Below, in pieces: positions 24,025 through 43,246 of a stretch of DNA of 64,000 nt. The stretch covers positions 62,001 to 126,000 of the forward strand of contig JAUXTT010000010.1 in assembly GCA_030684395.1 (NCBI GenBank), written 5' to 3'. Each line of letters starts with the position of its first letter. Position 1 is the first letter of the stretch. The stretch comes from Bacteroidota bacterium. Lineage in GTDB: Bacteria; Bacteroidota; Bacteroidia; B-17B0; Aurantibacillaceae. The notes beneath the pieces were generated by a model that saw nothing but the letters and a program-made list of their open reading frames with translations, was not told where the DNA came from and did no database searches. The translations under genes were made by a program, and so were the position numbers.

Positions 24025-24072
24025 TTTTATGATTGCAATCATAAAAAAACCATCATTATACAGCCAAATTTG
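24025..24072 (+). promoter_or_regulatory. FNR-like site and promoter of the nos operon
   Basis: A perfect 22-base palindrome fills 24025-24046, with arms TTTTATGAT and centre TGCA. Its core is TGAT-N4-ATCA. CAAATTTG at 24065-24072 is a one-mismatch -7 box. The dyad centre is 29.5 bases before the box, close to -41 from the likely start, the position of a class II activator. Confidence 0.75.
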
Positions 24073-24622: not shown

Positions 24623-26608
24623 ATGAAAAACTTAATAAAAATAGTAGCAGTAACCGGGTTAATCGCGACCACATCCTTGCAATCATGTAAGCCTAAAGAT
24701 ACAGGTAATGCTGTTAGTGGCGATGCCGGGATTAAAACCTACGTTGCTCCGGGAAAATATGATGAAATATACAATTTTGTAAGTGGTGGATTTAGTGGAC
24801 AAATGAGTGTTTATGGTTTACCCTCAGGTCGTTTATTAAGAGTAATACCTGTATTCTCTGTAGACCCTGAAAAAGGATGGGGATATAGTGAAGAAACCAA
24901 ACCAATGTTAAACACATCTCATGGCATGGTTCCCTGGGACGATTTACATCACGTTCAACTTTCTAAAACAAACGGAGAATATGATGGCAAATGGGTTTTT
25001 GGTAATGCCAATAACACTCCCCGAATAGCACGTATTGACTTAACTACATTCCGTACTCAGGAAATAATTGAAATACCAAATAGTGGCGGTAATCACTCCT
25101 CACCTTTTATTACTGAAAATACTGAGTATGTAGTTGCAGGTACCCGTTTTAGTGTCCCAATGGATGATGCTAATGGTGATGTAGCTATTGATACTTACAA
25201 AGAGAACTTCAAGGGAACTTTGAGTTTTATTAGCGTAGGTAAAGAAGATGGTAAAATGGATATCGCTTTCCAAATCAAATGCCCGGGAGTTAACTTCGAT
25301 TTAAGTCGTGCCGGTAAAGGGGTTTCTAACGGTTGGTTTTTCTTTTCTTGTTATAATACAGAACAAGCAAACACTTTATTAGAGGTAAACGCTTCTCAAA
25401 GAGATAAGGATTTTATAATGGCTGTCAACTGGAAAAAAGCGGAAGAATATTTGAAAGCAGGAAAAGGGAAAAAACAAGCAGTGAGATATGCTCATAATAC
25501 TTATAACGAAAAAACACATTCTGCAACTTCCGAAATTAAAACCGAAGTGATTGTTCTAGATTCAAAAGAACTAAAAGATATTTGTTATTTCATACCTTGT
25601 CCTAAATCTCCTCATGGATGTGATGTATCTCCAACCGGGGAATACATTGTTGCCAGTGGTAAATTAGCGGCTGTAATTCCTGTATTTAGTTATGACAAAA
25701 TAATAAAAGCAATTGCCGCAAAAAGCTTTGATGGTGAATTTGATGGTATTCCTGTAATTAAATACGAATCTGCATTGTATGGTGAAGTAAAAAAACCAGG
25801 ATTAGGGCCTTTGCATACAGAATTTGATGCTGATGGAAACGCATACACTTCCATGTTTGTGTCTTCAGAAGTTGTTAAATGGAATATCAAAGAATTAAAA
25901 GTAATTGACAGACAGCCTACGTTTTATTCAATTGGCCATTTATGTGTAGTTGGTGGAGACACAAAAAAACCAACAGGTAAATATTTAATTGCTTATAATA
26001 AAATTACAAAAGATCGTTATTTACCAACTGGTCCAGAGTTATCCCAAAGCGCACAGTTATTTGATATCAGTGGTGAAAAAATGAAATTACTTTTAGACTT
26101 TCCAACAATTGGAGAGCCTCACTATGCTCAAGCTGTGTTAGCAGATGTAATTAAGAATAAATCCTTGAAAATGTTTAAGATTGAAGAAAACATGCATCCA
26201 TACGTTGCAAAGGGAGAGAAAGAAACCAAAGTTGTGAGAGAAGGAAAAAAAGTTCATGTATACATGACAGCAATTCGTTCGCATTTAACTCCTGATAATA
26301 TTGAAGGAATTAAAATGGGAGACGAGGTTTATTTTCACGTAACAAATCTTGAACAAGATTGGGATGTTCCTCATGGTTTCGCAATTAAAGGTGCCGACAA
26401 TGCGGAATTATTAATTATGCCCGGTGAAACCCAAACATTAAAATGGATTCCAACAAAAGTGGGCATTTCCCCAATGTATTGTACAGATTTTTGCAGTGCT
26501 CTACATCAGGAAATGACGGGATATGTAAGAGTATCTCCGGCCGGAAGCAACGTTCCAATTAAATTTGGAACGGGTGTTACCACACCGGAAGTTGCTGCTA
26601 CGAAATAA
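24623..26608 (+). CDS. nosZ: Nitrous oxide reductase, clade II
   Basis: 661 residues. NosZ reduces N2O to N2 in the periplasm with the tetranuclear CuZ and dinuclear CuA centres. The N-terminus is a Sec lipoprotein-type signal (TSLQSC) and not a twin-arginine one, which marks clade II. Seven CuZ histidines can be traced: DDLHHVQ (109, 110), SGGNHS, KSPHGCDVSP, GPLHTEFD, SIGHLCVV and GEPHYAQ. The CuA loop is CTDFCSALHQEM, with Cys620, Cys624, His628 and Met631, in a cupredoxin domain that starts near residue 550. A strong terminator follows, so downstream nos genes are probably expressed less or from readthrough. Confidence 0.98.
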   Translation: MKNLIKIVAVTGLIATTSLQSCKPKDTGNAVSGDAGIKTYVAPGKYDEIYNFVSGGFSGQMSVYGLPSGRLLRVIPVFSVDPEKGWGYSEETKPMLNTSHGMVPWDDLHHVQLSKTNGEYDGKWVFGNANNTPRIARIDLTTFRTQEIIEIPNSGGNHSSPFITENTEYVVAGTRFSVPMDDANGDVAIDTYKENFKGTLSFISVGKEDGKMDIAFQIKCPGVNFDLSRAGKGVSNGWFFFSCYNTEQANTLLEVNASQRDKDFIMAVNWKKAEEYLKAGKGKKQAVRYAHNTYNEKTHSATSEIKTEVIVLDSKELKDICYFIPCPKSPHGCDVSPTGEYIVASGKLAAVIPVFSYDKIIKAIAAKSFDGEFDGIPVIKYESALYGEVKKPGLGPLHTEFDADGNAYTSMFVSSEVVKWNIKELKVIDRQPTFYSIGHLCVVGGDTKKPTGKYLIAYNKITKDRYLPTGPELSQSAQLFDISGEKMKLLLDFPTIGEPHYAQAVLADVIKNKSLKMFKIEENMHPYVAKGEKETKVVREGKKVHVYMTAIRSHLTPDNIEGIKMGDEVYFHVTNLEQDWDVPHGFAIKGADNAELLIMPGETQTLKWIPTKVGISPMYCTDFCSALHQEMTGYVRVSPAGSNVPIKFGTGVTTPEVAATK

Positions 26609-26683: not shown

Positions 26684-27706
26684 ATGAAGACAACTGAAAA
26701 AAATATTGGAATAATCTCAAAAGGATTACTCTTGCTTTCAGGAGCGTTACTTGTACTTTCTTTATTTAACCCAATTTGGAGAATTGAGTTAGATGCACCC
26801 CAATATCCCGAAGGACTGGCATTAACCATCCATGCAAACAAATTGGCGGGTGATGTAAATATTATAAATGGCTTAAATCACTATATAGGAATGAAAACAC
26901 TTCATGAAGAAGAATTTGTTGAGTTTACCGTTTTGCCATATATAATTAGCTTTTATGCATTAGCGTGCGTACTTGTAATATTTATTAAAAACAAGAAAGC
27001 GCTCACTATTTTATTTACAGGATTTGTTCTATTTGGAATAATTGCAATGATAGATTTTTGGAGATGGGAGTATAATTATGGACATAACCTTGACCCAAAT
27101 GCTGCTATCATAGTGCCTGAAATGGCTTATCAACCGCCACTTATCGGCTTTAAACAATTACTGAATTTTGGAGCCTATTCGATTCCTGATATTGGAGGCT
27201 GGTTATTTATTTCAAGTGGCTTGTTAATGGCAATAGCTGTTTTTATCGAATTCATGAACACCAGAAAACTAAAAAAACAAAACATAACAATGATTCTTTT
27301 ACCCATTTTATTGTTTTCCTTTACTGCCTGTGAACCAACAAAACCTGAACCAATAAAATTAAACGCAGATAATTGCAATAACTGTGGAATGACAATTTCA
27401 AATCCAAAATTTGCCGCTGAATTATTCACCCAAAAAGGAAGAGCTTATAAATTTGACGACATTTCCTGTATGGTCAATTATAAAATTGATAATAAAGATA
27501 AAGCAAATGGCGCAAGTTTTTTTGTTGCGGATTTTTTAGGAGATAACCACTTAATTCCTGCTGAAACAGCCGTTTATATAACAAGCGAAAATGTAAAAAG
27601 TCCAATGGGAGGTAATACCGCAGCCTTTAGCAATAAAGAAAGTTCAACCAAATATGCTACTGATTTTATGGCAGAGTATACAACATGGAATGATATAAAT
27701 AAATAG
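26684..27706 (+). CDS. nosL: Membrane protein fused to NosL copper chaperone
   Basis: 340 residues. Residues 1-200 form a four-helix membrane protein with periplasmic loops (LFNPIWRIELDAPQYPEGL, DFWRWEYNYGHNLDP). From residue 203 a complete NosL begins with its own lipoprotein-like signal (MILLPILLFSFTAC), followed by NCNNCGMTISNP and YKFDDISCMVNY. The C-x2-C-G-M motif and the later Met residues bind Cu(I). NosL delivers copper for CuZ assembly. The two parts are separate genes in many nos clusters. Translation could also restart at the in-frame ATG at 27290, which would give free NosL lipoprotein. Confidence 0.9.
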   Translation: MKTTEKNIGIISKGLLLLSGALLVLSLFNPIWRIELDAPQYPEGLALTIHANKLAGDVNIINGLNHYIGMKTLHEEEFVEFTVLPYIISFYALACVLVIFIKNKKALTILFTGFVLFGIIAMIDFWRWEYNYGHNLDPNAAIIVPEMAYQPPLIGFKQLLNFGAYSIPDIGGWLFISSGLLMAIAVFIEFMNTRKLKKQNITMILLPILLFSFTACEPTKPEPIKLNADNCNNCGMTISNPKFAAELFTQKGRAYKFDDISCMVNYKIDNKDKANGASFFVADFLGDNHLIPAETAVYITSENVKSPMGGNTAAFSNKESSTKYATDFMAEYTTWNDINK

Positions 27707-28941
27707 TGAAATCAAAATTATTTATACTCCTTTTTTGCTCTGCTTCGTTTTTTGTTTTTGCAAAAAAATACGAAGTTGGAGTTAACCGTTCTTTTAAAAC
27801 CATCAAGGCAGCATTAGCTCAAATTCAAAATGGTGACTCTGTGCTTGTTTATGAAGGGTTATACAAAGAAGGAAATATTGTGCTGGATAAAGAAGTTAAA
27901 TTAATAGGAATCAATTTTCCTGTTTTGGATGGTCAAAAAAAATATGAAGTATTATCCATAAAAGCAGCAAATGTGTTGGTTTGTGGATTCAAAGTACAAC
28001 ATTCAGGCTACGCAACATTAGAGGATCCGGGAGGAATTAAAGTTTATAATACCAGAAATGTTGTTATCAGAGATAACATATTAGATGATAATTTTTTTGC
28101 CATCTACCTGCAATATTGTTCAAATTGTATTATAAAAAACAATCGCATTAAGGCATACGGGATAGAAGAACAGCAGATCGGCAATGGCATCCACTGTTGG
28201 AAAAGTGATAGCTTACAAATAATCGGTAATACTATTTCCGGGCATAGAGATGGTATTTATTTTGAATTTGTCACCAATTCCATTATCTGGAGAAACATTT
28301 CAGCCACAAATATCCGTTACGGGTTACATTTTATGTTTTCCAATAATGATTCCTATATATCAAATGTATTTAAAAATAACGGTGCCGGTGTTGCTGTTAT
28401 GTTTACAAATAAAGTTAAGATGTTTAATAATACATTCACTGAAAACTGGGGGGACGCTGCCTACGGGCTATTTTTAAAAGAAATATCTGACAGCTATATT
28501 TTTGGAAATAAATTCTTAAAAAACACAGAAGCAATACACATGGAAGGCACCAGTAGAATTAAAGTTGAAAAAAATGTTTTTGAAGCAAATGGTTGGGGAA
28601 TGAAAATTCAGGCTAGTTGTATGGAGAATGAGATTGTATCAAATAATTTTGTGGGAAATACATTTGACATAAGCACAAATGGTTCACTCGTGTTAAACAC
28701 ATTTAATGGAAACTATTGGGACAAATATGAAGGATATGATTTAGACAAAAATAAAATAGGAGATGTGCCCTATCATCCACTTAGTTTGTTTTCTGTGATA
28801 GTTGAAAAAAATCCTCCGGCTATGCTTTTATTCAGAAGCTTCATGGTGACTTTATTGGATAAGTCAGAAAAGATAATGCCCAGCTTAACTCCTGATAATT
28901 TTATTGACAATACTCCATTAATGCATTCTTTAAAATTATGA
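27706..28941 (+). CDS. nosD: NosD, periplasmic copper-site maturation protein
   Basis: 411 residues, start GTG sharing a base with the nosL stop. A signal peptide (FILLFCSASFFVFA) precedes a right-handed beta-helix of CASH repeats (VVIRDNILDDNFFAIYLQ, IIKNNRI, LQIIGNTISGHRDGIYFEF). NosD works with the NosFY ABC transporter to build the CuZ cluster of NosZ, and its family length is about 400-450. The nosF gene overlaps its stop (ATGA). Confidence 0.95.
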   Translation: MKSKLFILLFCSASFFVFAKKYEVGVNRSFKTIKAALAQIQNGDSVLVYEGLYKEGNIVLDKEVKLIGINFPVLDGQKKYEVLSIKAANVLVCGFKVQHSGYATLEDPGGIKVYNTRNVVIRDNILDDNFFAIYLQYCSNCIIKNNRIKAYGIEEQQIGNGIHCWKSDSLQIIGNTISGHRDGIYFEFVTNSIIWRNISATNIRYGLHFMFSNNDSYISNVFKNNGAGVAVMFTNKVKMFNNTFTENWGDAAYGLFLKEISDSYIFGNKFLKNTEAIHMEGTSRIKVEKNVFEANGWGMKIQASCMENEIVSNNFVGNTFDISTNGSLVLNTFNGNYWDKYEGYDLDKNKIGDVPYHPLSLFSVIVEKNPPAMLLFRSFMVTLLDKSEKIMPSLTPDNFIDNTPLMHSLKL

Positions 28942-29651
28942 TTGAAATTAATAATCTATCAAAAAATTTCGGTAAGCTAAAAGTTATAAATAACGTTAGT
29001 TTATCATGCAATCAGGGGGAATGCATTGCTCTTATCGGACCCAACGGGTGTGGTAAAACTACTTTAATAAAAACCATTTTAGGAATGGTTATTCCATCAA
29101 AAGGAACTATAAAATTTAAAGGAGAGTATGTTTCCAAAAATTTCGAATACAGAAAATACATCGGATATATGCCTCAAATTGGGAGATACCCCGATAACAT
29201 GACGATTGGACAAATTTTAGAAATGATTAAAGAAATCAGGAAATCAGATCTTGACCTGGACGAAGATTTATTGCATCAATTTAAACTAAAAGATCTGTTT
29301 AATAAACGTATGAGGACTCTTTCGGGTGGAACAACACAGAAAGTAAGTGCCACACTGGCATTTTTATTTAACCCTGATGTATTGATACTAGATGAACCAA
29401 CAGCAGGATTAGATCCTCTTGCATCTGAAATATTAAAGGAAAAAATCATAGCTGAAAAACAAAAAGGCAAATTAATATTAATTACCTCCCATTTGTTGAG
29501 TGAGTTGGATGACTTAATAACTCAAATTATTTTCATGCAGGATGGTGAAGTTCAATTTCATAAAACCATTGCTGATCTTAAAGCATCTACCGGCGAGGAA
29601 AAAATATCAAAAGCCATTGCAACTATTTTAAAAGCAAAGAACAATGAATAG
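28938..29651 (+). CDS. nosF: NosF, ABC transporter ATPase
   Basis: 237 residues with Walker A GPNGCGKTT, Q loop YMPQIG, signature LSGGTTQKV, Walker B VLILDEPTAGLD and switch His in ITSHLLSELD. It is the cytoplasmic ATPase that drives NosY and NosD during CuZ biogenesis. It overlaps nosD by four and nosY by eight bases. Confidence 0.95.
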   Translation: MIEINNLSKNFGKLKVINNVSLSCNQGECIALIGPNGCGKTTLIKTILGMVIPSKGTIKFKGEYVSKNFEYRKYIGYMPQIGRYPDNMTIGQILEMIKEIRKSDLDLDEDLLHQFKLKDLFNKRMRTLSGGTTQKVSATLAFLFNPDVLILDEPTAGLDPLASEILKEKIIAEKQKGKLILITSHLLSELDDLITQIIFMQDGEVQFHKTIADLKASTGEEKISKAIATILKAKNNE

Positions 29652-30411
29652 AATTATAAAATTTATTGTTTTAGACATACTGAAAAACAAAATTGTTTTA
29701 GTGTACACTGCTATTCTATCAATCCTATCCTGGAGTGTATTTAGTTTAGAGGACAATAGCACCAAAGGTCTCCTCACCTTATTAAATGTTATTCTATTAA
29801 CTGTTCCGCTTATATCAGTTGTGTTCTCTACAATTTATATTTACAATAGTTCGGAATTCATAGAACTGCTATTAAGTCAACCTATAAAAAGAAGTAAAAT
29901 CTGGTGGAGCTTATTTTTTGGACTGACCTTATCTTTATTGCTTTCGTTTTTTATTGGAACAGGCATACCTATTTTATTTTATGCACCTTCCGATGTTGGG
30001 ATCATGATGCTCCTGGTAGGTTTTTTTATTACTACTGTTTTTGTTGCAATTGCCTTTTTAAGTTCAATACTTACCAGAGATAAAGCTAAGGGAATTGGTA
30101 TAGCAATTATGTTATGGCTATTTTTCGCATTGCTATTTGATGGAATTGTATTATTCCTGTTATTTCAATTGTCAGATTATCCTATCGAAAAGATGATGGT
30201 CGGGATTACTGCATTTAACCCTATTGATTTAGCCAGAATTTTGATTTTACTGCATTTAGATGTTTCTGCTATGATGGGATATACCGGGGCAATATTCAAA
30301 GATTTTTTCGGCACATCCATTGGAATTTTCATAGCATTTATCATACTGTTTCTGTGGATCATTGTTCCATTTTTGGTCTCTCTCATTAAATTTAACAGAA
30401 AAGATTTATAA
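29644..30411 (+). CDS. nosY: NosY, ABC transporter permease
   Basis: 255 residues with about six membrane helices, of ABC-2 permease type (LLLSQPIKRSKIWWSLFFGL in the loop after helix 2). It pairs with NosF and contacts NosD across the membrane. Last maturation gene of the cluster; the PAS gene follows after 11 bases. Confidence 0.93.
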   Translation: MNRIIKFIVLDILKNKIVLVYTAILSILSWSVFSLEDNSTKGLLTLLNVILLTVPLISVVFSTIYIYNSSEFIELLLSQPIKRSKIWWSLFFGLTLSLLLSFFIGTGIPILFYAPSDVGIMMLLVGFFITTVFVAIAFLSSILTRDKAKGIGIAIMLWLFFALLFDGIVLFLLFQLSDYPIEKMMVGITAFNPIDLARILILLHLDVSAMMGYTGAIFKDFFGTSIGIFIAFIILFLWIIVPFLVSLIKFNRKDL

Positions 30412-30422
30412 AAATCATAGCG

Positions 30423-31124
30423 ATGAAGTCTAATAGTAGCATTGGTGAGTTTTTTGATTTAATAAAACAATCCAACATGAGTTTGTTGCAAATTTCTCTT
30501 GCCTATCAGAAAGCAACAAATGAAAAAATGTTTTGTTCAATTACTGATACAAACGGCATAATACTTTATGTTAACGAAAATTTTTGCAAAACATCACAAT
30601 ACTCAAAAGAAGAATTGATAGGAAAGTCCCACAATATTGTTAATGCCGGGCACCATTCTCCTGATTTTTTTAATCAATTATGGGAAACCATTAAAAGTGG
30701 GGATGTATGGCATGGAGAAGTAAAAAACAGAGCAAAAGATGGGGCCTATTACTGGTTAGATTCAGTAATAATTCCGGTAAAGAACATTGACGGTGAAATA
30801 ATTCATTTTTTTTCATTAAGAACTTTAATAAATGAGAAAAAACAAAAGGAAGAAGAAATTGAGAGGAATTTAAAAATTCTTCAAGAAATCCTTTTTATGC
30901 TTTCACACAAAATCAGGCAGCCTATTGCTACCATTATTGGATTATCAAACCTTCTCCGAAATTGCACTGATTCGGAAAAAGCAAGCAAAATAGTATCTTA
31001 TATAAAAGATTCTTCGGTTGTACTTGATGATTTTACTAGGGAGTTAACCTTATATATAAATGAAGCTTCAACCACCGAAATAAATAGATTAAAAAACAAT
31101 GAAAAAAGATATTTCCAACAATAA
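30423..31124 (+). CDS. PAS protein with histidine-kinase dimerisation domain but no ATPase domain
   Basis: 233 residues. A PAS domain (about 30-140) has ITDTNGIILYVNENFC, YSKEELIGKSHNIVNAG and a PAC-like segment (DGAYYWLDSVIIPV). A HisKA-like helix pair follows with LSHKIRQPIATIIGLSNLL, in which the His sits in an HxxRxP context. The protein then ends with no N or G box. It may act as a sensor that scaffolds or accepts phosphate from another kinase, or it may be a cut-down kinase. It lies within the nos operon and overlaps the haemoglobin gene by 26 bases, suggesting a nitrogen-oxide or redox input. Confidence 0.85.
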   Translation: MKSNSSIGEFFDLIKQSNMSLLQISLAYQKATNEKMFCSITDTNGIILYVNENFCKTSQYSKEELIGKSHNIVNAGHHSPDFFNQLWETIKSGDVWHGEVKNRAKDGAYYWLDSVIIPVKNIDGEIIHFFSLRTLINEKKQKEEEIERNLKILQEILFMLSHKIRQPIATIIGLSNLLRNCTDSEKASKIVSYIKDSSVVLDDFTRELTLYINEASTTEINRLKNNEKRYFQQ

Positions 31125-31467
31125 GGATATAGAGAAACTAGTTAATCTATTTTACAAAAAAGTAAAAAAAGACCCAACCTTAAGCCCCTTTTTCATAGAT
31201 GGCTTTGACTGGAACAAACATTTGCAAATTATGTATAAGTTTTGGGAAAATGTACTTTTTTATACCGGAAATTATGGTGGAAATCCTATGCAAAAACATT
31301 TTGATATTCACTCAAAACAGCCTTTAACCATGAAGCATTTCCACCAATGGACAACGCTCTTTAATGAATCTGTTGATGAATTATTTCAAGGAGAAAAAGC
31401 TGATTCGATTAAATTAAAGGCTTCAAATATTGCTACAGTTATGCAAATAAAAATTATTAGAGCATAA
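31099..31467 (+). CDS. Group III truncated haemoglobin
   Basis: 122 residues. Group III features are LVNLFYKKVKKDPTLSPFF, the proximal His region HFDIHSKQPLTMKHFHQW, and FWENVLFYTGNYGGNP. Such globins bind NO or oxygen and are linked to NO detoxification or redox sensing. The start ATG lies within the PAS gene. As the last gene of the nos operon it probably protects against NO formed during denitrification. Confidence 0.9.
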   Translation: MKKDISNNKDIEKLVNLFYKKVKKDPTLSPFFIDGFDWNKHLQIMYKFWENVLFYTGNYGGNPMQKHFDIHSKQPLTMKHFHQWTTLFNESVDELFQGEKADSIKLKASNIATVMQIKIIRA

Positions 31468-31648: not shown

Positions 31649-32593
31649 TTACAATTGATTTTCTAATTCTATACTTTTCGGAAAAAGAATATTGTTTTCC
31701 AGGTGAATATGTTGATGTAAATCTTCTTCAAATTCTTTGAGTTTTAGAAATGAAACTTTGTAAGTAGCACAACAATCCTCCGGTGGAGTATAATTGCTTG
31801 ATAACTCCCTGATTGTTTTAAAAATATCGCCTACCAAATCATGCTCATGTTCCATCATTTCAATTGGGTTTTTAACTGCCCCAAAAGCTGTATATGGCAC
31901 ATTTTGATTAGTGGACTTCGCTAAAACCAATTGTTTTATATAGGGAAATAAAATTTGTTCTTCTTTACACATGTGCCCATTTAATTCATCAGCTGCGGCA
32001 TTAAATTTTTCTGAAATGGTTATAACTTCAGGATGAGTATGACCATGCACCTTGGCTACTTTAGTAGTATATTCCAACAATAATGGGATAGTTTTTTTTA
32101 CGTAGTTATGATGTGTATTTAGAATGTAATCAATCAAAAAATCTAAATTCCATTCGTCAAATTTTTGCTCTACCCTACTAACAATAGCATCAATTTCATT
32201 TAATTCCTTTTCTACCATCAGGTAATCTACCTTTTTATCATTACAGGCCTGGTTAACAGTTTTTTTGCCGCCACAACAAAAATCTATATTATACTTTTTA
32301 AAGATTTCTGCTTTTCTAAAATCCTTAGCTACTAATTCTCCAATGGTTGGCTCTGAAGAGGAATTATTTTTTTTGATTTTCACTTCCCAAATTTCAGGCC
32401 CCGACAGGAGATATTCCCACGAAAAAACATTCCCTCTTTCCTCTATTAATTGATAATACAAGGTTTTTGGGTCATGATCAGTGTGAATTATGAAAGCTTC
32501 TCCTTCCAATAATTTGTCGAAATTTCCGAAAATTGTAGGGTGCATTAATTTTGGTTCAATGACCGTCACGTCTAAAGTTTCAATTGTCTCCAT
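31649..32593 (-). CDS. Ric/ScdA/YtfE-type iron-sulfur cluster repair protein with extra N-terminal domain
   Basis: 314 residues in three parts. Residues 1-75 are a DUF2249-like domain (EAFIIHTDHDPKTLYYQL, WEYLLSGPEIWEVKI). About 83-140 is the DUF542 domain with IFKKYNIDFCCGGKKTVNQAC. About 150-312 is a hemerythrin-like di-iron domain whose ligands lie in THHNYV, HGHTHPE, HMCKEEQILFPY, MMEHEHD and HIHLENNILFPKS. Ric proteins restore Fe-S clusters damaged by NO or peroxide. It has its own FNR-like promoter. Confidence 0.93.
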   Translation of the reverse strand: METIETLDVTVIEPKLMHPTIFGNFDKLLEGEAFIIHTDHDPKTLYYQLIEERGNVFSWEYLLSGPEIWEVKIKKNNSSSEPTIGELVAKDFRKAEIFKKYNIDFCCGGKKTVNQACNDKKVDYLMVEKELNEIDAIVSRVEQKFDEWNLDFLIDYILNTHHNYVKKTIPLLLEYTTKVAKVHGHTHPEVITISEKFNAAADELNGHMCKEEQILFPYIKQLVLAKSTNQNVPYTAFGAVKNPIEMMEHEHDLVGDIFKTIRELSSNYTPPEDCCATYKVSFLKLKEFEEDLHQHIHLENNILFPKSIELENQL

Positions 32594-34095: not shown

Positions 34096-34141
34096 CAAAT
34101 GTACAGGGCCCATTCCAATGTGTTTATGATCTAAATCATAA
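34096..34141 (-). promoter_or_regulatory. FNR-like site and promoter of the fasciclin gene
   Basis: TTATGAT (34124-34130), CTAA and ATCATAA (34135-34141) form a dyad with perfect 7-base arms. On the minus strand TACATTTG (34103 to 34096) is a perfect -7 box, 29.5 bases from the dyad centre. The site also lies about 79 bases before the likely start of the divergent operon and could serve both. Confidence 0.75.
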
Positions 34142-34158: not shown

Positions 34159-34205
34159 AATTAGGATAATTTTGTCCGAATTGAAAAATAAAGTGAATAT
34201 ATTTG
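34159..34205 (+). promoter_or_regulatory. Rrf2/NsrR-type operator and promoter of the tpl-nor operon
   Basis: AATTAGGA (34159-34166), 8 bases, TCCGAATT (34175-34182) form a dyad with one mismatch. The 24-base block matches 20 positions of the block before the rrf2 gene at 42.7 kb. TATATTTG (34198-34205) is a perfect -7 box. The dyad covers the -33 region, as expected for a repressor. Confidence 0.7.
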
Positions 34206-34230: not shown

Positions 34231-36036
34231 ATGAAAACTACATCCCCCCACTCCTTTCATATCCCGGTTATGGGACTTGCTTATACTATTGATACACCCG
34301 TAAAGGTTGCTAAATATGGAATTACATCAGTAATTTCCATCATCGAGGATTACCTGGTTGAACAAATGCGGGAAGTTCTTTGCAAAAATGAGCAAATTGA
34401 ATATGTAAATATTCCTATTACTGAACGCGATTACAGGGCAAAAAGAATAACAGCTTATTTGGATTTAATACAAGAAATAATAGATAAACAAATTGAAGAA
34501 ATAAAAAACGAGGAATTTAGCACAGGGAAAAATATCACTCAATACTTTGAAATGTTGCCTGATGATTCAACAACTAAAGCATTGTATAATAAAATGCTTG
34601 CTTGCAACTCGAATGAAAAAAGTGAGCTGGAAAAAAAGTTACGTAAATCAATTACCGCTGGAAAAATCGATGTAAATATTATGACAAAATTAGATAAAAC
34701 TAATTATGATACCGACGGGAATGAATTACCAACACAATTTTCTGATGCTTTATCTGCCTTAAGAGGATATGCCACTAGTAAAATAAAATCTTCCATTATT
34801 TTCTCCGCAGGCCTGAATCCCAGGTTATTCAGTTACTGTGAGACATTCGAAGATTTTTATCCTAATCTACACGGTGTTATCAATAAAAAAATAATTTTAA
34901 AGGTTAGTGATTACCGCTCCGCATTAATTCAAGGAAAATACCTGGCAAAAAAGGGATTATGGATTTCTGAATTTAGAATAGAATCAGGTATTAATTGCGG
35001 TGGACATGCCTTTATTTCAAACGGAATTCCTTTAGGTCCAATATTAGAAGATTTTAAAAACAAGAGAGCTGAATTATATAATGAATTATATATTGAGTGC
35101 TCAAATGCATTAAAACAATTTGGGCGCAACCCTTTTATAAACAAACCTGAATTAAAGATTACTGCACAAGGGGGCATTGGGACAAGCGAGGAAAATGCTT
35201 TTCTGATAGATTATTACAATTTACATTCTACAGGTTGGGGAAGCCCATTTTTATTGGTTCCGGAAGCTACAAACGTTGACGATGATACACTAAGTAAATT
35301 AAAGAACGCAAAAAAAGAAGATTACTATTTAAGTCATTCATCTCCTCTTGGTGTCCCTTTTAGTAATTTTAGAAATAGTAGCTCTGAAGTTCAACGAAAA
35401 GCAAGAATTAATAAAAACAGGCCGGGAAGCCCCTGTTACAAAAAATTCCTGTCCATGGACACAGAATTTACTGATAAACCAATCTGCACTGCATCCAGAG
35501 AATACCAAAACTTAAAAATTCAGCAACTTAAAAATAACATCCCTAATCAGAATTTATTAGCTTACGAAATTGAAAAAGTAACAGAAAAAGATTGTTTATG
35601 CGAAGGGCTTGGAGCATCAGCGTTACTTAAAAATAAAGCGAAACTTTCTCACAAATTAAGCGCTGTTACAATCTGCCCGGGACCGAATTTAGCATACTTC
35701 TCCAACACATTTACCCTTAAGCAAATGGTCGATCACATATACGGTCGCATAAATATTTTGAATAATTTAAACAGACCTAATATTTTCATCAATGAATTAC
35801 AATTATACTTTGATTATCTAAAAAAAGAAATAGAAGATCAATATAATGTAATCACCAATAAAAAGTTAACCTATTTTCAAACTTTCAAAGACAATCTGAT
35901 AAAAGGAATTGATTATTACGAGGAGCTTATCCCAAAGATAAAACAAAGTAACGCGAATTTTAATGACACTATCATGAAACAGCTTGAAGAATTAAAAAAC
36001 TCTTTGAATCTATTGCCACTATTGCAAACAACATAA
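34231..36036 (+). CDS. Large protein with nitronate-monooxygenase-like barrel motifs
   Basis: 601 residues, no signal or membrane segment. The N-terminus FHIPVMGLAYTIDTPVKVAK and the central SGINCGGHAF and KITAQGGIGTSEENAF resemble FMN-binding TIM-barrel proteins of the nitronate monooxygenase/FabK type, where GGH and AAGGI motifs hold the flavin phosphate. The C-terminal 200 residues are helical with Cys-containing segments (KDCLCEGLGASAL, VTICPGPNLAYF). I do not recognise the family with certainty. It leads an operon with tyrosine phenol-lyase and nitric oxide reductase, behind an NsrR-type operator, so a role in nitro-compound or NO stress is an inference. Confidence 0.75.
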   Translation: MKTTSPHSFHIPVMGLAYTIDTPVKVAKYGITSVISIIEDYLVEQMREVLCKNEQIEYVNIPITERDYRAKRITAYLDLIQEIIDKQIEEIKNEEFSTGKNITQYFEMLPDDSTTKALYNKMLACNSNEKSELEKKLRKSITAGKIDVNIMTKLDKTNYDTDGNELPTQFSDALSALRGYATSKIKSSIIFSAGLNPRLFSYCETFEDFYPNLHGVINKKIILKVSDYRSALIQGKYLAKKGLWISEFRIESGINCGGHAFISNGIPLGPILEDFKNKRAELYNELYIECSNALKQFGRNPFINKPELKITAQGGIGTSEENAFLIDYYNLHSTGWGSPFLLVPEATNVDDDTLSKLKNAKKEDYYLSHSSPLGVPFSNFRNSSSEVQRKARINKNRPGSPCYKKFLSMDTEFTDKPICTASREYQNLKIQQLKNNIPNQNLLAYEIEKVTEKDCLCEGLGASALLKNKAKLSHKLSAVTICPGPNLAYFSNTFTLKQMVDHIYGRINILNNLNRPNIFINELQLYFDYLKKEIEDQYNVITNKKLTYFQTFKDNLIKGIDYYEELIPKIKQSNANFNDTIMKQLEELKNSLNLLPLLQTT

Positions 36037-36078: not shown

Positions 36079-37470
36079 ATGAAAACAATAATTAAAAGAT
36101 CTTGGGCTGAACCTTATAAAATGAAGATGGTTGAATTAATTAAAATGGCAACTAAACAGCAACGCATCAAAGCTATTAAAGAAGCAGGATACAACACATT
36201 CCTTCTTAAGTCTGAGGATGTATATATTGATTTACTCACGGATAGTGGAACAAACTCTATGAGTGACCGACAATGGGGAGCGTTTATGACGGGAGATGAA
36301 GCTTATGCCGGAAGCAAAAGTTATTATAAATTAGAAGAAGCCATTCGAAAATATTATGGATACAAATATATTATACCAACACATCAGGGAAGGGCCGCTG
36401 AAAATATATTATCAAAAATATTAATTAAAAAAGGTGATGTAATTCCCGGAAACATGTACTTCACCACAACTCGCTTACATCAGGAATTAGTCGGTGGAAT
36501 TTTCACTGATATTATAATTGATGAAGCCCATGAACCGCTTAATGAACATCCCTTTAAAGGAAATGTAGATTTAGTGAAGTTGGATAAAGTAGTTAAAAAG
36601 TATGGGGCTAAAAAAATACCATACGTGAGTATCGCAACTAATGTTAACCTGGCGGGAGGACAACCAATTAGCATGGCAAACCTTAAAGAATTGAGATCCT
36701 ATACAAAAAAGAATAATATTCGTATTATACACGATATGACCAGAGTGGCTGAAAATGCATACTTTATTCAGCAAAGGGAGAAAGGTTATAACGAAAAAAC
36801 AATTAAAGAAATTGTTTTGGAAATATGTTCTTTAACTGACGGTGCAACCATGAGTGCAAAAAAAGATGCTTTGGTTAACATTGGTGGTTTCATGGCCACA
36901 AACGAATGGGATGTTTATGAGGAAGCGAGAAATTTAGTGGTAGTCTATGAAGGGCTACATACTTATGGTGGTTTAGCAGGAAGAGATATGGAAGCAATTG
37001 CTATTGGGATTGCAGAAAGCCTTGATGATAATCATCAACGTGCAAGAATTGGACAAGTGGAATACCTTGGACATAAAATGATGGAGTATAATATTCCAAT
37101 TGTACAACCAATTGGCGGGCATGGAATATTTGTAGATGCTAAAGCATTTTTGCCCCATCTAACACAGGATCAATATCCGGCTCAAACGCTGGCTGCTGAA
37201 ATATATATAGATTCCGGCGTAAGAACTATGGAACGGGGAATTGTTTCGGCGGGAAGAAAAGCTAATGGAGAAAATCATTATCCTAAACTTGAACTAGTTC
37301 GATTTACCATACCAAGAAGAGTTTATACACAAGCGCACATGGATGTAATTGCAGAATCCGCTGCAGCCGTGTACGAAAGAAGAAATTCTATAAAAGGCTT
37401 AAAAATGATTTATGAACCAAAATACCTTCGCTTTTTTCAGGCAAAATTTGAAATTTGTAAAGACCTATGA
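36079..37470 (+). CDS. tpl: Tyrosine phenol-lyase
   Basis: 463 residues. The PLP enzyme splits L-tyrosine into phenol, pyruvate and ammonia. ATG 36079 is chosen because it matches the family N-terminus (KRSWAEPYKMKMVELIKM); a TTG at 36037 right after the previous stop is unlikely. Lys262 in SAKKDALVNIGGF binds PLP. Residues that separate it from tryptophanase match the lyase: Thr129 in MYFTTTRLHQ, Arg386 in TMERGIVSAGR and Phe453 in RFFQAKF, all at a constant offset of five from Thr124, Arg381 and Phe448 of the Citrobacter enzyme. Its last bases overlap norC (ATGA), an unexpected partner. Confidence 0.9.
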   Translation: MKTIIKRSWAEPYKMKMVELIKMATKQQRIKAIKEAGYNTFLLKSEDVYIDLLTDSGTNSMSDRQWGAFMTGDEAYAGSKSYYKLEEAIRKYYGYKYIIPTHQGRAAENILSKILIKKGDVIPGNMYFTTTRLHQELVGGIFTDIIIDEAHEPLNEHPFKGNVDLVKLDKVVKKYGAKKIPYVSIATNVNLAGGQPISMANLKELRSYTKKNNIRIIHDMTRVAENAYFIQQREKGYNEKTIKEIVLEICSLTDGATMSAKKDALVNIGGFMATNEWDVYEEARNLVVVYEGLHTYGGLAGRDMEAIAIGIAESLDDNHQRARIGQVEYLGHKMMEYNIPIVQPIGGHGIFVDAKAFLPHLTQDQYPAQTLAAEIYIDSGVRTMERGIVSAGRKANGENHYPKLELVRFTIPRRVYTQAHMDVIAESAAAVYERRNSIKGLKMIYEPKYLRFFQAKFEICKDL

Positions 37471-37889
37471 AATTAAAACCTATCTACGTTTTTTTAATTC
37501 TAAGTGCTTCCTTTCTCTGGTATTCGTTTAGTATTTATATTAAACCACTATCTACAAAAGAGAATACCACATTCAATAAAAAGATGGCCTCTGATGGACA
37601 GCTTGTATGGCAATATTATAACTGTCAGAGCTGTCATCAACTGTATAATTTAGGAGGATATTTAGGCCCCGATTTAACCAACGTTATTTCAAATCCGGAT
37701 AAAGGCGAAAAGGTAATCAGAGCAATGGTTAAATCAGGAACAAAACAAATGCCTGCATTTACCTTATCAGATAATGAAATGGATTTATTGGTTGAGTATT
37801 TAAAATCTACTGATGCAAGTGGCTCAGCAGATCTAAGAAAACTTAAGATTAATAATTTTGGAATGATAGAAGAAGGTGAAAGAAAGTAA
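37467..37889 (+). CDS. norC: Nitric oxide reductase cytochrome c subunit
   Basis: 140 residues: an N-terminal membrane anchor (YVFLILSASFLWYSFSIYI), then one haem c domain with CQSCHQLYNLGGYLGPDLTN and the distal Met in TKQMPAFTLSDNE. NorC passes electrons to NorB in the membrane. It overlaps norB by 14 bases. The arrangement anchor-CxxCH-GPDLTN is that of NorC. Confidence 0.92.
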   Translation: MKLKPIYVFLILSASFLWYSFSIYIKPLSTKENTTFNKKMASDGQLVWQYYNCQSCHQLYNLGGYLGPDLTNVISNPDKGEKVIRAMVKSGTKQMPAFTLSDNEMDLLVEYLKSTDASGSADLRKLKINNFGMIEEGERK

Positions 37890-39219
37890 ATTTAATATCG
37901 GAAATCTTTTTTTAGCAACTGCACTATTTATGTTGGTGTCAGGATTGTGCTTTGGGGTATTGGCAGCACTGATTTATCTTTTCCCCGATTTTTTGAAACA
38001 AGAAATGGGTTTTGTTTCACTAAGGCCGCTGCACGTTTCCTCGGCAATGTTTTGGATAATTTTAGGAGCCACAGGCTGCGTTTATAACGGAATGAAAATT
38101 CTAATAAACGATTCCAAAATTAAAGTGATAGCAATAATTCAATGGGGGTTATGGATAGTTGCAATTATTGGAATTATGGGCTCCTATTTTATTAAAGATT
38201 TTGGAGGAAGAGAATATTGGGAGTTTAATCCCGTTTGGGCACTTCCAATAGCTTTAGCATGGCTTTTATTTTTGGCAAACTTTTACCAATTAGTAAAGAA
38301 AACAAAAAATTGGCCAGTGTATATTTGGATGTGGATGACAGGAATACTTTTTTTTCTATTCACGTTTTCTGAAAATTATTTATGGATGTTTCCCTATTTC
38401 CGTGAACATTTTATAACCGATATGACTATTCAGTGGAAAGTGAATGGATCGTTAGTTGGCTCCTGGAATCAAATCTTGTACGGTACAGCATTTTTTTTAA
38501 TGGATAAAATTTCCAATTCAAAAAGCACAGGGACAAGCAAACTTGCTTTCTTCATGTATTTTTTAGGGCTGTTTAACCTGATGTTTAACTGGGGGCATCA
38601 CATTTATACTCTCCCTACCGAAAAATATATCAGATACATCGGATATATAGTTAGCATGACAGAATGGGCTTTTTTCATAAAGATCATTTATGATTGGAGA
38701 GCCAGTGTTAATACAATTCAGAAACACTATCATTATTTCCCATATCGATTCTTAATGGCCGCAGATATATGGGTGGTTCTTAATATGGGTCAGGCAATAC
38801 TAATGTCGATCCCTGCAATAAATATTTATACACATGGAACACATGTAACAGTTGCACACGCCATGGGTACTACAATAGGAATTAACAGTATGATTTTATT
38901 TGCTGCTTGTTTTGAGTTTTTCAATTTTAATACTACAAATAATAAACGATTAAAATATTACAAAATTTTGTTTTGGGCACTGCAATTGAGTTTACTTATA
39001 TTCTGGTTATCATTAAATATTGCCGGAATAAAAAAAGGCATTTGGCAATTGAGCAGTAATCAATCAAGTTATTCAAAAATGATGGAATCCCTTAGACCCT
39101 ATTTTATCGCCTTTGTTTTTGCGGGGGTAGGTTTATTATTAACATTGGGTTCATTTGCTTTTGGTTTAATAAAAAGTTTGTTCACGAATAATCATCCCGA
39201 AGAAATAAAAACTCATTAA
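37876..39219 (+). CDS. norB: Nitric oxide reductase large subunit, atypical ligand set
   Basis: 447 residues, GTG start within norC, about 12 membrane helices of the haem-copper oxidase superfamily. It should reduce NO to N2O. His53 (RPLHVSSAMFWI) is the helix II haem ligand, His241-His242 (NWGHHIYTLP) the helix VII pair and His328 the helix X ligand in HGTHVTVAHAM. Two usual ligands look replaced. The helix VI position expected to be His reads Asn198 (VGSWNQILYG), and the second helix X His reads Met330. This form looks like a Bacteroidota NorB variant often annotated as cbb3-type subunit I. Its activity is inferred from norC and the nos/NO context. Confidence 0.88.
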   Translation: MKESKFNIGNLFLATALFMLVSGLCFGVLAALIYLFPDFLKQEMGFVSLRPLHVSSAMFWIILGATGCVYNGMKILINDSKIKVIAIIQWGLWIVAIIGIMGSYFIKDFGGREYWEFNPVWALPIALAWLLFLANFYQLVKKTKNWPVYIWMWMTGILFFLFTFSENYLWMFPYFREHFITDMTIQWKVNGSLVGSWNQILYGTAFFLMDKISNSKSTGTSKLAFFMYFLGLFNLMFNWGHHIYTLPTEKYIRYIGYIVSMTEWAFFIKIIYDWRASVNTIQKHYHYFPYRFLMAADIWVVLNMGQAILMSIPAINIYTHGTHVTVAHAMGTTIGINSMILFAACFEFFNFNTTNNKRLKYYKILFWALQLSLLIFWLSLNIAGIKKGIWQLSSNQSSYSKMMESLRPYFIAFVFAGVGLLLTLGSFAFGLIKSLFTNNHPEEIKTH

Positions 39220-39230
39220 ATTATTATACA

Positions 39231-40409
39231 ATGAAGAATAACGCAAATATAGAAGACTTAAAAATAGCTTACCGTTATAAGTCAAACAGAGATTTGAAAT
39301 TTACCTATTACATCTTTAAAATACTTCAACACCCTAATCTATTAAACATTCTGACTTCTTTAACTAATGGAATCATTAAGTATAATTTACCGTTTAAATT
39401 TTTAGTTAAAAACACGGTATTTAAATTATTTTGCGCTGGTGTAAATATTGACGAAGCATTTTCTAAAATTAACTATTTAAAAACATTTAAAGTAAAATCA
39501 GTATTGGATTATGTTTCTGAAGGAGAGAAAAGCGATGAAGCCTTTGATAATAATACAAAAACAATTGTTGCCAATATAATCAGAATCGGAAAAGAATGTC
39601 CCGGTAATTACGTGAGCATCAAAATTTCAGGATTAGAAAGCCCTGAATATTTAACTAATTGCAGTGGAATGGAATTTAATAAAGACCTGATAACGTCACC
39701 CAAGTTTGATAAATTGATGAGGCGCATGGATCTGATTTGTAATACCGCCTGTACTTCTCAGGTAGTAGTTTTTATTGATGCGGAAGACAGATGCATGCAA
39801 GACGTTTTTGATAGAATTACAGAAACCATGATGGAAAAATACAATAAAGAACATGCTATTGTATTTAACACCTTGCAAATGTATCTTAAAGACAGATTGA
39901 CTTACCTTAATTTTTTATTGCATGATTCAGAACGGAAGAATTATGTGCCTGGCATTAAGCTAGTGAGAGGGGCTTACGTAGAAAAGGAAAGGGAAAATGC
40001 TTTAAAAGAAGGTAAGCTATCGCCCGTATATGATACTAAAAAAGAAACGGATGATGCATTTAACGAAGCAGTAGAAATATGTTTAAGGGAGCACAAAAAA
40101 ATAGATGTATGTATTGCGACACATAATACTGAAAGTACGCTACACGCTATAAATTGCATTAATAAATATAATATTACCGATCATTATACTAAAGTGAGAT
40201 TTTCGCAACTCTATGGAATGAGTGATAATTTAACTTTTAACTTAAGTTCAAATGGCTACAACTCTTCGAAATATTTGCCTTATGGAGAAATAAAAAAGGC
40301 CATTCCTTATTTAATAAGAAGATCTGAAGAAAACTCATCTATTGATGGACAAATTATAGATGAAGTAGTAAGACTAAAAAAAGAACTTGATCGAAGGAAA
40401 ATTTGTTAA
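39231..40409 (+). CDS. Proline dehydrogenase
   Basis: 392 residues. FAD enzyme of the PRODH barrel family that oxidises proline to pyrroline-5-carboxylate and feeds electrons to the quinone pool. Family motifs: VSIKISGLESPEY, VVFIDAEDRCMQD, GIKLVRGAYVEKERE, CIATHNTEST, FSQLYGMSDN and YLPYGEIKKAIPYLIRR. It is monofunctional (no P5C dehydrogenase part). It follows norB by 11 bases, so proline oxidation may supply electrons during NO respiration. Confidence 0.92.
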   Translation: MKNNANIEDLKIAYRYKSNRDLKFTYYIFKILQHPNLLNILTSLTNGIIKYNLPFKFLVKNTVFKLFCAGVNIDEAFSKINYLKTFKVKSVLDYVSEGEKSDEAFDNNTKTIVANIIRIGKECPGNYVSIKISGLESPEYLTNCSGMEFNKDLITSPKFDKLMRRMDLICNTACTSQVVVFIDAEDRCMQDVFDRITETMMEKYNKEHAIVFNTLQMYLKDRLTYLNFLLHDSERKNYVPGIKLVRGAYVEKERENALKEGKLSPVYDTKKETDDAFNEAVEICLREHKKIDVCIATHNTESTLHAINCINKYNITDHYTKVRFSQLYGMSDNLTFNLSSNGYNSSKYLPYGEIKKAIPYLIRRSEENSSIDGQIIDEVVRLKKELDRRKIC

Positions 40410-42741: not shown

Positions 42742-42792
42742 AAAACTAATTCGGATAATAATGTCCGAGTTAGTTTTCTTAAACTACATTTG
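42742..42792 (+). promoter_or_regulatory. Rrf2/NsrR-type operator and promoter of rrf2-nrdDG
   Basis: A 36-base dyad: AAAACTAATTCGGA (42742-42755), 8 bases, TCCGAGTTAGTTTT (42764-42777), one mismatch in 14 pairs. TACATTTG (42785-42792) is a perfect -7 box. The dyad covers the -33 region, which suits autorepression by the Rrf2 protein encoded 16 bases beyond the box. Confidence 0.75.
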
Positions 42793-42808
42793 TAGCATAA
42801 ACTATATT

Positions 42809-43246
42809 ATGATTTTCACAAAAGCTTGCGAATACGGAATCAGGGCCATTATTTATGTCACTAAACAATCAATGAATGGCAAAAGATCAAGTCTTAAAGA
42901 CATTTCACGGGAAATTGATTCTCCTGAGGCGTTTACCGCCAAAATTTTACAGATGTTGGCGAAAAATGGAATTATAAACTCTGTTAAAGGAGCAATGGGT
43001 GGATTTGAAATTGAAGAAAAGAAGATTAAAAAAATAAAATTAGCTGATATTGTACATGCAATAGATGGAAAAAGTATCGATAAGATGTGTGTTATTGGAT
43101 TAAAAAAATGTTCAGAAATCCACCCATGCCCTGTTCATTATAAGTATAAACACATAAAAAAAGATTTTTTATCGATGCTGGAAAACACAAGCTTATTAGA
43201 AATGTCAACTAGCATCAATGATGGATTAACTTGTTTAAAATTATAA
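42809..43246 (+). CDS. Rrf2-family regulator, NsrR-like
   Basis: 145 residues from ATG 42809, which matches the family start (MIFTKACEYGIRAIIYV). Winged helix with SSLKDISREIDSPEAFTAKI and the wing VKGAMGGFEI. Three cysteines (Cys94, Cys101, Cys107) lie in the position of the Fe-S ligands of NsrR and IscR, with C-x6-C-x5-C spacing. NsrR clusters react with NO, which releases the operator. The matching dyad is found at its own promoter and at the tpl-nor operon. nrdD follows after three bases. Confidence 0.9.
   Translation: MIFTKACEYGIRAIIYVTKQSMNGKRSSLKDISREIDSPEAFTAKILQMLAKNGIINSVKGAMGGFEIEEKKIKKIKLADIVHAIDGKSIDKMCVIGLKKCSEIHPCPVHYKYKHIKKDFLSMLENTSLLEMSTSINDGLTCLKL

Follow-up and report, generated by a model that had tools for sequence, protein, structure and literature searches.

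In the passages of PMC8626469 that describe it, FabX of Helicobacter pylori is an acyl-ACP dehydrogenase/isomerase with FMN and a [4Fe-4S] cluster, and its electron acceptor is oxygen. The same passages name C300, C304, C308 and C320 as the cluster ligands, H182 as the catalytic residue, and N99, E175, S179, G180, G220, G221, F339, T340 and G341 among the FMN contacts. A second report (PMC11300592) describes a gonococcal FabX homologue that is essential for making unsaturated fatty acids without oxygen and whose acceptor is unknown, and a passage of a third (PMC4549310) also treats UfaA in anaerobic unsaturated fatty acid synthesis.

A protein of 601 residues is encoded in a stretch of 64,000 nucleotides from a Bacteroidota genome (contig JAUXTT010000010.1; hereafter the window, whose positions are used throughout, with genes on the plus strand unless stated otherwise). 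With FabX (HP0773; PDB 7e1q, 9lt5) it has in common a TIM barrel, with nearly the whole length of FabX matched, the GGH catalytic loop, the VNxM and GGI motifs and a cysteine-rich C-terminal region that replaces the NAD(P)H site. It differs in length (601 versus 363 residues, the additions being a helical insertion and a tail), in a further pair of invariant cysteines next to the predicted flavin site, in having no direct sequence match to FabX, and in its candidate cluster ligands, C402, C419, C455 and C457, which do not reproduce the FabX cysteine spacing. FabX-like proteins of 418–426 amino acids from other Bacteroidota share a K-x-CLC motif and co-linear barrel motifs with it, but are about 180 residues shorter, 23–24% identical over the profile alignment and found in different genomes. 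FabK and nitronate monooxygenase (NMO; PF03060) share the fold and the catalytic histidine, but have no cysteine cluster region and give neither a Pfam match nor a profile signal with the 601-residue family. A further related system is UfaA (Neisseria gonorrhoeae NGO1024), a FabX homologue needed to make unsaturated fatty acids anaerobically.

A widespread family without a library name

The open reading frame is intact from its ATG at 34231 to the stop codon at 36036. Full-length homologues with 47–70% identity, in which GGH and QGG(I/V)G are kept, mark the frame as a real gene, and together with the predicted model and the fold searches they are the basis for annotating 34231..36036 as a FabX-branch flavo-iron-sulphur protein. 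Homologues occurred in 14 of 59 other genomes in a first sample of relatives and in 142 of 395 sampled Bacteroidota species, where one of the 142 has a C-terminal fragment alone. Searching genome contigs with the single sequence found no relative, while an alignment used as query recovered at least 588 confirmed stretches in contigs of GTDB species; named records among the matches listed include Bacteroidota, Omnitrophota, Ignavibacteria and one record of the Syntrophobacteraceae. A few genomes depart from a single intact copy: G208 has two full copies (contigs C25 and C31), G151 has pieces of a second, broken copy (C1:4371161-4372137) and G346 has only a C-terminal fragment (C30:7854-8267).

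The original prediction had assigned the protein to no clear family, and this holds for the libraries searched (Pfam, NCBIfam and phmmer against PDB sequences), yet a widespread, unnamed family exists. Pfam gave no match to the protein at E ≤ 1 and unrelated weak matches only for the other members of a 15-sequence alignment. PF03060 matched none of the 15 members at E ≤ 1 or at its curated cut-off, and a search of the window's own genome with it found three other places and not 34231-36036. The FabK model TIGR03151 was likewise without a match among the 15 members at E ≤ 1, and phmmer found no solved structure in the PDB at E ≤ 10. In NCBIfam, one of the 15 members had a partial match to TIGR01703 (residues 108–169; 17.5 bits against a cut-off of 360.8), beside other weak, scattered matches; identity as a hydroxylamine reductase or hybrid cluster protein was considered and the match taken as chance. 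Matches of the C-terminal helices to apolipoproteins in Pfam and the PDB were put down to helix composition. Literature searches on FabX, UfaA and NMO with nosZ in Bacteroidetes showed no paper on the family among those listed. About one third of the sampled Bacteroidota species thus possess a protein that is unnamed in every profile library searched.

Predicted fold, flavin site and cysteines

AlphaFold2 models were built from 15 relatives (pLDDT 81.5) and from 70 relatives (alignment A2; mean pLDDT 91.9, pTM 0.92). The order of elements in the model is that of a TIM barrel, with DSSP strands at residues 9–11, 32–36, 146–151, 188–192, 220–225, 245–251, 309–313 and 333–335, and the predicted fold is near certain. 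The flavin-barrel idea of the original prediction, which a fold other than a TIM barrel would have contradicted, is therefore borne out by a high-confidence model. Strands 1 and 2 carry the conserved motif HxFHIPVMG (about residues 9–37; 34255..34341) and are followed by a helical insertion of about residues 55–140 (34393..34650), which FabX-type sequences match in part. Strand 3 (IDVNIM, residues 146–151; 34666..34683) contains N149. Strand 6 and its loop ISEFRIESGINCGGHAF (residues 245–261; 34963..35013) include the invariant C256 and H259, whose function is predicted by comparison, and strand 7 leads into the flavin-phosphate-type motif KITAQGGIGTSEE (residues 309–321; 35155..35193). The helices at residues 518–593 (35782..36009) contain no cysteine and lie beyond the part matching FabX.

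With both models the top Foldseek match was H. pylori FabX (E of 5.2e-9 with the first and 1.8e-10 with the second), ahead of PfaD, trans-acting enoyl reductases, FabK and NMO; with the second model all matches at E ≤ 1e-5 were to these proteins or to a yeast fatty-acid-synthase subunit. In VIA-align, whose ranges give only the first and last aligned residue, the first model scored Z 26.5 against FabX (331 aligned residues, rmsd 3.2, model residues 2–506), 23.0 against PfaD and 21.3 against FabK. The second model scored Z 23.2 against FabX (rmsd 3.1, 335 of 363 residues aligned, model 1–506 on FabX 6–363), and 21.3 for the best row other than FabX, which was FabK; in this better model the margin of FabX over FabK is no more than about 2 Z units, and NMO structures fell at about 16–20. 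The FabX match reaches model residue 506 and so spans the cysteine region, leaving the final helices outside. The protein is a variant of the FabX kind and not a new fold.

Profile comparison points the same way. A search of 61 Bacteroidota genomes with PF03060 yielded the FabX-like type of 418 residues (L209-L215), for one of which FabX was the best solved match by phmmer (E of 8.6e-27). A profile of seven such proteins (A3) found the type in 88 of 395 genomes, including five shorter proteins (355–368 residues) with the cysteine pattern CPxxCxxxC...PYC. The longer form, of 418–426 residues (L209-L215, L251-L253), has six C-terminal cysteines in the pattern NC..KC..CLC..CWTC, occurs in about 83 of the 395 Bacteroidota genomes and is distinct from both FabX and the 601-residue family. 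Aligned by hhalign with 15 FabX-like sequences (ten long and five short), A2 scored 60.0 (E of 7.4e-7, probability 91.8, 269 columns), against 25.2 for a reversed alignment and 27.3 for the best of 20 column shuffles. The long type alone gave 33.7 (shuffle maximum 24.0), whereas the five short sequences alone gave 25.9, below the shuffle maximum of 27.1 and not significant; a signal emerges only when the long or the combined profile is used. Against 24 FabK and NMO sequences the score was 15.2, no better than shuffles (mean 18.6). A 70-sequence profile did not find FabX among PDB sequences at E ≤ 10 with hmmsearch, and the relation is therefore visible only by fold and by profile-profile comparison. 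The kinship to NMO and FabK that had been read from the motifs stands at the level of the superfamily, but by fold searches and profile comparison the nearest solved relative is FabX.

Twelve residues were unchanged in 167 of 167 sequences: N149, E251, C256, H259, G315, C402, C419, C455, C457, C482, G484 and N486. Duplicates between records were removed from this set for two loci only (L030 and L032), and a few more may be present. In a joint MAFFT alignment, which covered 11 of the 70 A2 sequences and the FabX-like proteins of the long (ten) and short (five) type, N149 falls on the Asn of VNIM/NCM, GGH on GGH and QGG on AGG; N149, the GG pair and the Ser/Thr in the strand-8 loop are retained. 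The motifs first picked out as flavin-barrel motifs, GGHAF (residues 257–261) and AQGGIGTSEE (residues 312–321), are thus both present, align with the GGH and AGG of FabX-type proteins, and place a catalytic-type His after strand 6 and a GG(I/V) after strand 7. N149 would be the counterpart of the FMN-binding N99 and H259 that of the catalytic H182 of FabX, and FMN binding by the barrel is likely.

A [4Fe-4S] cluster is also likely. C402 and C419 fall on short-type cysteines, and C419, C455 and C457 on cysteines of the 418-residue long type; based on this alignment and on the ligands and FMN contacts of FabX, C402, C419, C455 and C457 (35434..35601) are the most economical candidate ligands. 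C482-P-G-P-N aligns with F-(S/A)-G-A-N of the short type, which puts the CPGPN loop (residues 482–486; 35674..35688) with its C482-P-G at the place of F339-T340-G341 in FabX; residues 490–492, an earlier candidate for this position, were dropped after the joint alignment. C256, just before GGH, and C482, at the place of F339, should by this alignment lie at the flavin. The C-terminus had been described as a new, helical region containing cysteine. Conserved cysteines are present, but at residues 402–482, and the last 90 or so residues are helical without cysteine; nor is the cysteine region new, as it corresponds to the [4Fe-4S] subdomain of FabX with a different spacing.

Operon, upstream palindromes and genomic neighbours

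The gene leads an operon that continues with tyrosine phenol-lyase (36079..37470; TIGR02618, 724.5 bits against a cut-off of 720.7), a cytochrome c that appears norC-like (37467..37889; Pfam), a haem-copper oxidase family protein that is norB-like and presumably an NO reductase (37876..39219; PF00115) and proline dehydrogenase (39231..40409; PF01619). Proline dehydrogenase is the last operon gene in the window and in close relatives, and two Pontibacter loci (L073 and L091) have a like palindrome before it. On the other side of the gene lie a Ric/ScdA-type protein with DUF542, DUF2249 and hemerythrin domains (31649..32593, minus strand; Pfam and pattern search) and nosZ (24734..26539, the coordinates of the TIGR04246 match), beside which are nosD-like genes and genes probably corresponding to nosF and nosY (27706-30411). 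Next after the nos genes, at 30423-31467, come a PAS-HisKA protein and one that resembles truncated globins (PF01152).

The palindrome ATGATCTAAATCAT (34126..34139; pattern search), which we take from its TGA-N6-TCA form to be of Crp/Fnr type, ends 91 bp before the start codon. The window contains five ATGAYN4RTCAT sites, this one included, where 0.43 are expected by shuffling; the others are at 24029 (before the nos region), 32657 (before the Ric-type gene), 42572 (upstream of an Rrf2 gene) and 49184 (before a Crp-type regulator). The pattern is not enriched genome-wide (27 sites in the 4.87-Mb genome versus 32 for the backwards control), and with five of the 27 inside 64 kb this is a local cluster rather than a genome-wide excess. 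Upstream of family members, TGAYN4RTCA occurs in 74 of 164 cases, compared to 102 of 818 controls drawn from those loci (Fisher p of 1.3e-19). Among the controls are further genes of the regulon, and the family members are phylogenetically non-independent. Most of these sites lie 40–133 bases before the gene start. The 164 upstream regions leave out two of 166 loci with fewer than 150 bases, and L026 is outside the set. The looser TGAN6TCA was found upstream of 82 of the 164 members and 155 of the 818 matched controls, a count that supersedes a first test against random 300-mers (68 of 94 versus 12.8%). The original prediction had placed the gene at the head of an NO-linked operon directly behind an operator, and both parts agree with the norC- and norB-like genes that follow and with the palindrome located upstream.

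A second palindrome, TAGGATAATTTTGTCCG (34162..34178), resembles a site at an Rrf2-family gene (42761-43246); the shared GGATAAT..GTCC form occupies 42751-42767 there and 34162-34178 before the 601-residue gene. The type is present in 12 of 166 upstream regions of the family and 31 of 1545 controls, and the paired sites suggest that an Rrf2-type regulator may bind its own gene and this operon.

Among the gene clusters that recur within five genes of the family member across 166 loci are tyrosine phenol-lyase/tryptophanase (17), Ric (16), Crp/Fnr-type regulators (13), radical SAM proteins that we take to be HemN-type (13), norC-like proteins (11), NadA (11), Rrf2 (11), norB-like proteins (10) and nosD-like proteins (10), where the labels Ric, HemN, NadA/B and those of cbb3 parts are provisional and come in part from the Pfam matches of single examples. 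An ABC-type ATPase cluster near the gene in 19 of the 166 loci is unspecific. In L018, L019 and L020 the tyrosine phenol-lyase adjoins a second, tryptophanase-like gene that is 43–46% identical, and in L024 and L045 like palindromes precede genes of the tyrosine phenol-lyase/tryptophanase cluster. Six Omnitrophota loci (L074, L077, L087, L090, L092 and L106) have the 601-residue gene near genes that are presumably ThiC-like and 2-oxoacid oxidoreductase-like, often with a BioB-like gene (radical SAM and BATS).

Carriers of the gene possess nosZ in 68 of 142 genomes, compared to 61 of 253 other genomes, and in 20 of the 68 genomes with both the two genes lie within 15 kb. The co-occurrence is significant over the 395 genomes (p of 2e-6) and weakens to p of 0.06 after leaving out 88 genomes with the FabX-like type. 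With nosZ lacking in 74 of the 142 carriers, or about half, the protein is not in itself a denitrification enzyme.

Proposed reaction and alternatives

The best explanation, which we hold at about even confidence, is a long, divergent flavo-iron-sulphur dehydrogenase of the FabX branch that acts on acyl thioesters and is made under low oxygen or NO. The barrel (about residues 9–350) would bind FMN, with H259 of the CGGH loop corresponding to the catalytic His in FabX and FabK, and the region 395–485, at the place of the FabK NAD(P)H site, would hold the [4Fe-4S] cluster. H259 may deprotonate an acyl thioester (acyl-ACP or acyl-CoA) at C2, a hydride would pass to FMN, and an electron may be parked on the cluster or leave through it to an acceptor. 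The product would be an enoyl thioester, perhaps a cis-3-enoyl one. Expression would be switched on by a Crp/Fnr-type regulator in response to low oxygen or NO, as oxygen-dependent desaturases stall. The acyl substrate, the direction, the acceptor and the physiological role are all proposed by analogy, and for the substrate we see an even chance once the FabX branch is granted.

The genome of the window has five matches to the FA_desaturase family, which requires oxygen, and UfaA is under Fnr control; an anaerobic backup under Fnr-type control would fit. Against a fatty-acid role, the genomic neighbours are respiratory and include no fatty-acid genes, and the neighbour in close relatives is tyrosine phenol-lyase. 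Given these respiratory neighbours and the large barrel insertion, the substrate could be a different one, with the insertion of about 85 residues and the 90-residue tail pointing to that possibility. If the protein is an anaerobic acyl dehydrogenase, it would explain unsaturated lipids in facultative Bacteroidota once oxygen-dependent desaturases stop, and would open the question, left open by the FabX and UfaA reports, of the electron acceptor where oxygen is lacking.

Three features are unusual: an unnamed family that is so widespread, a cluster spacing that differs from that of FabX, and a pair of invariant cysteines on the flavin side. More tentatively, they may define a distinct flavo-iron-sulphur class with a FabX barrel, a four-cysteine cluster of new spacing, the C256/C482 pair and control of Fnr type and, in close relatives, Rrf2 type. 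Such a class, which we consider possible though doubtful, would be either an oxygen-independent desaturation route of facultatively anaerobic Bacteroidota with an acceptor other than oxygen, or a thiol-flavin enzyme acting on NO-derived species. Should the flavin-side cysteines be catalytic, this would be new chemistry on a well-studied barrel.

Other reactions known or imaginable for the superfamily were weighed against the FabX-branch dehydrogenase. The cysteine region occupies the place of the NAD(P)H region and FabK is the next best structural match, as expected of a FabK-type enoyl-thioester reductase that takes electrons from ferredoxin or another Fe-S donor instead of NAD(P)H and runs in the reverse direction to FabX; presumed 2-oxoacid oxidoreductase-like genes adjoin in Emticicia and several Omnitrophota. 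This reading is unlikely, as FabX ranks above FabK with both models and the best-counted cluster of such neighbours is near the gene in only 5 of 166 loci. The fold, the catalytic His and the NO-linked operon are equally what a nitronate monooxygenase clearing nitro compounds formed under NO stress would present. The lower Z scores of NMO structures, the PF03060 result (0 of 15 members) and the lack of a profile signal against the 24 FabK/NMO sequences make this very unlikely, and a passage of PMC8626469 describes an Fe-S cluster as absent from other characterised NMO-family members.

The operon, its neighbours and the alignment of two invariant cysteines to loops that touch FMN in FabX would suit a redox enzyme of NO metabolism in which C256 and C482 are the sites of reaction with NO, nitrosothiols or some other small molecule and electrons travel via the cluster. 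That we regard as distinctly unlikely, since the gene is also present in genomes without nosZ and in named Omnitrophota and Ignavibacteria records, and to our knowledge no barrel of the NMO/FabK/FabX superfamily reacts its cysteines with NO or nitrosothiols. That the enzyme works together with tyrosine phenol-lyase in a step of phenol or aromatic amino-acid metabolism is the most improbable of these readings: the 17 loci counted above have a gene of the tyrosine phenol-lyase/tryptophanase type no more than five genes away, and the other 149 of 166 are without such a neighbour in that range.

The 601-residue family and the 418-residue FabX-like type were never found together (0 of 395 genomes). 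This complementary distribution is not taken as proof of a shared function because it is confounded by lineage, with 81 of the 88 carriers of the FabX-like type belonging to a single family and nosZ present in none of the 88.
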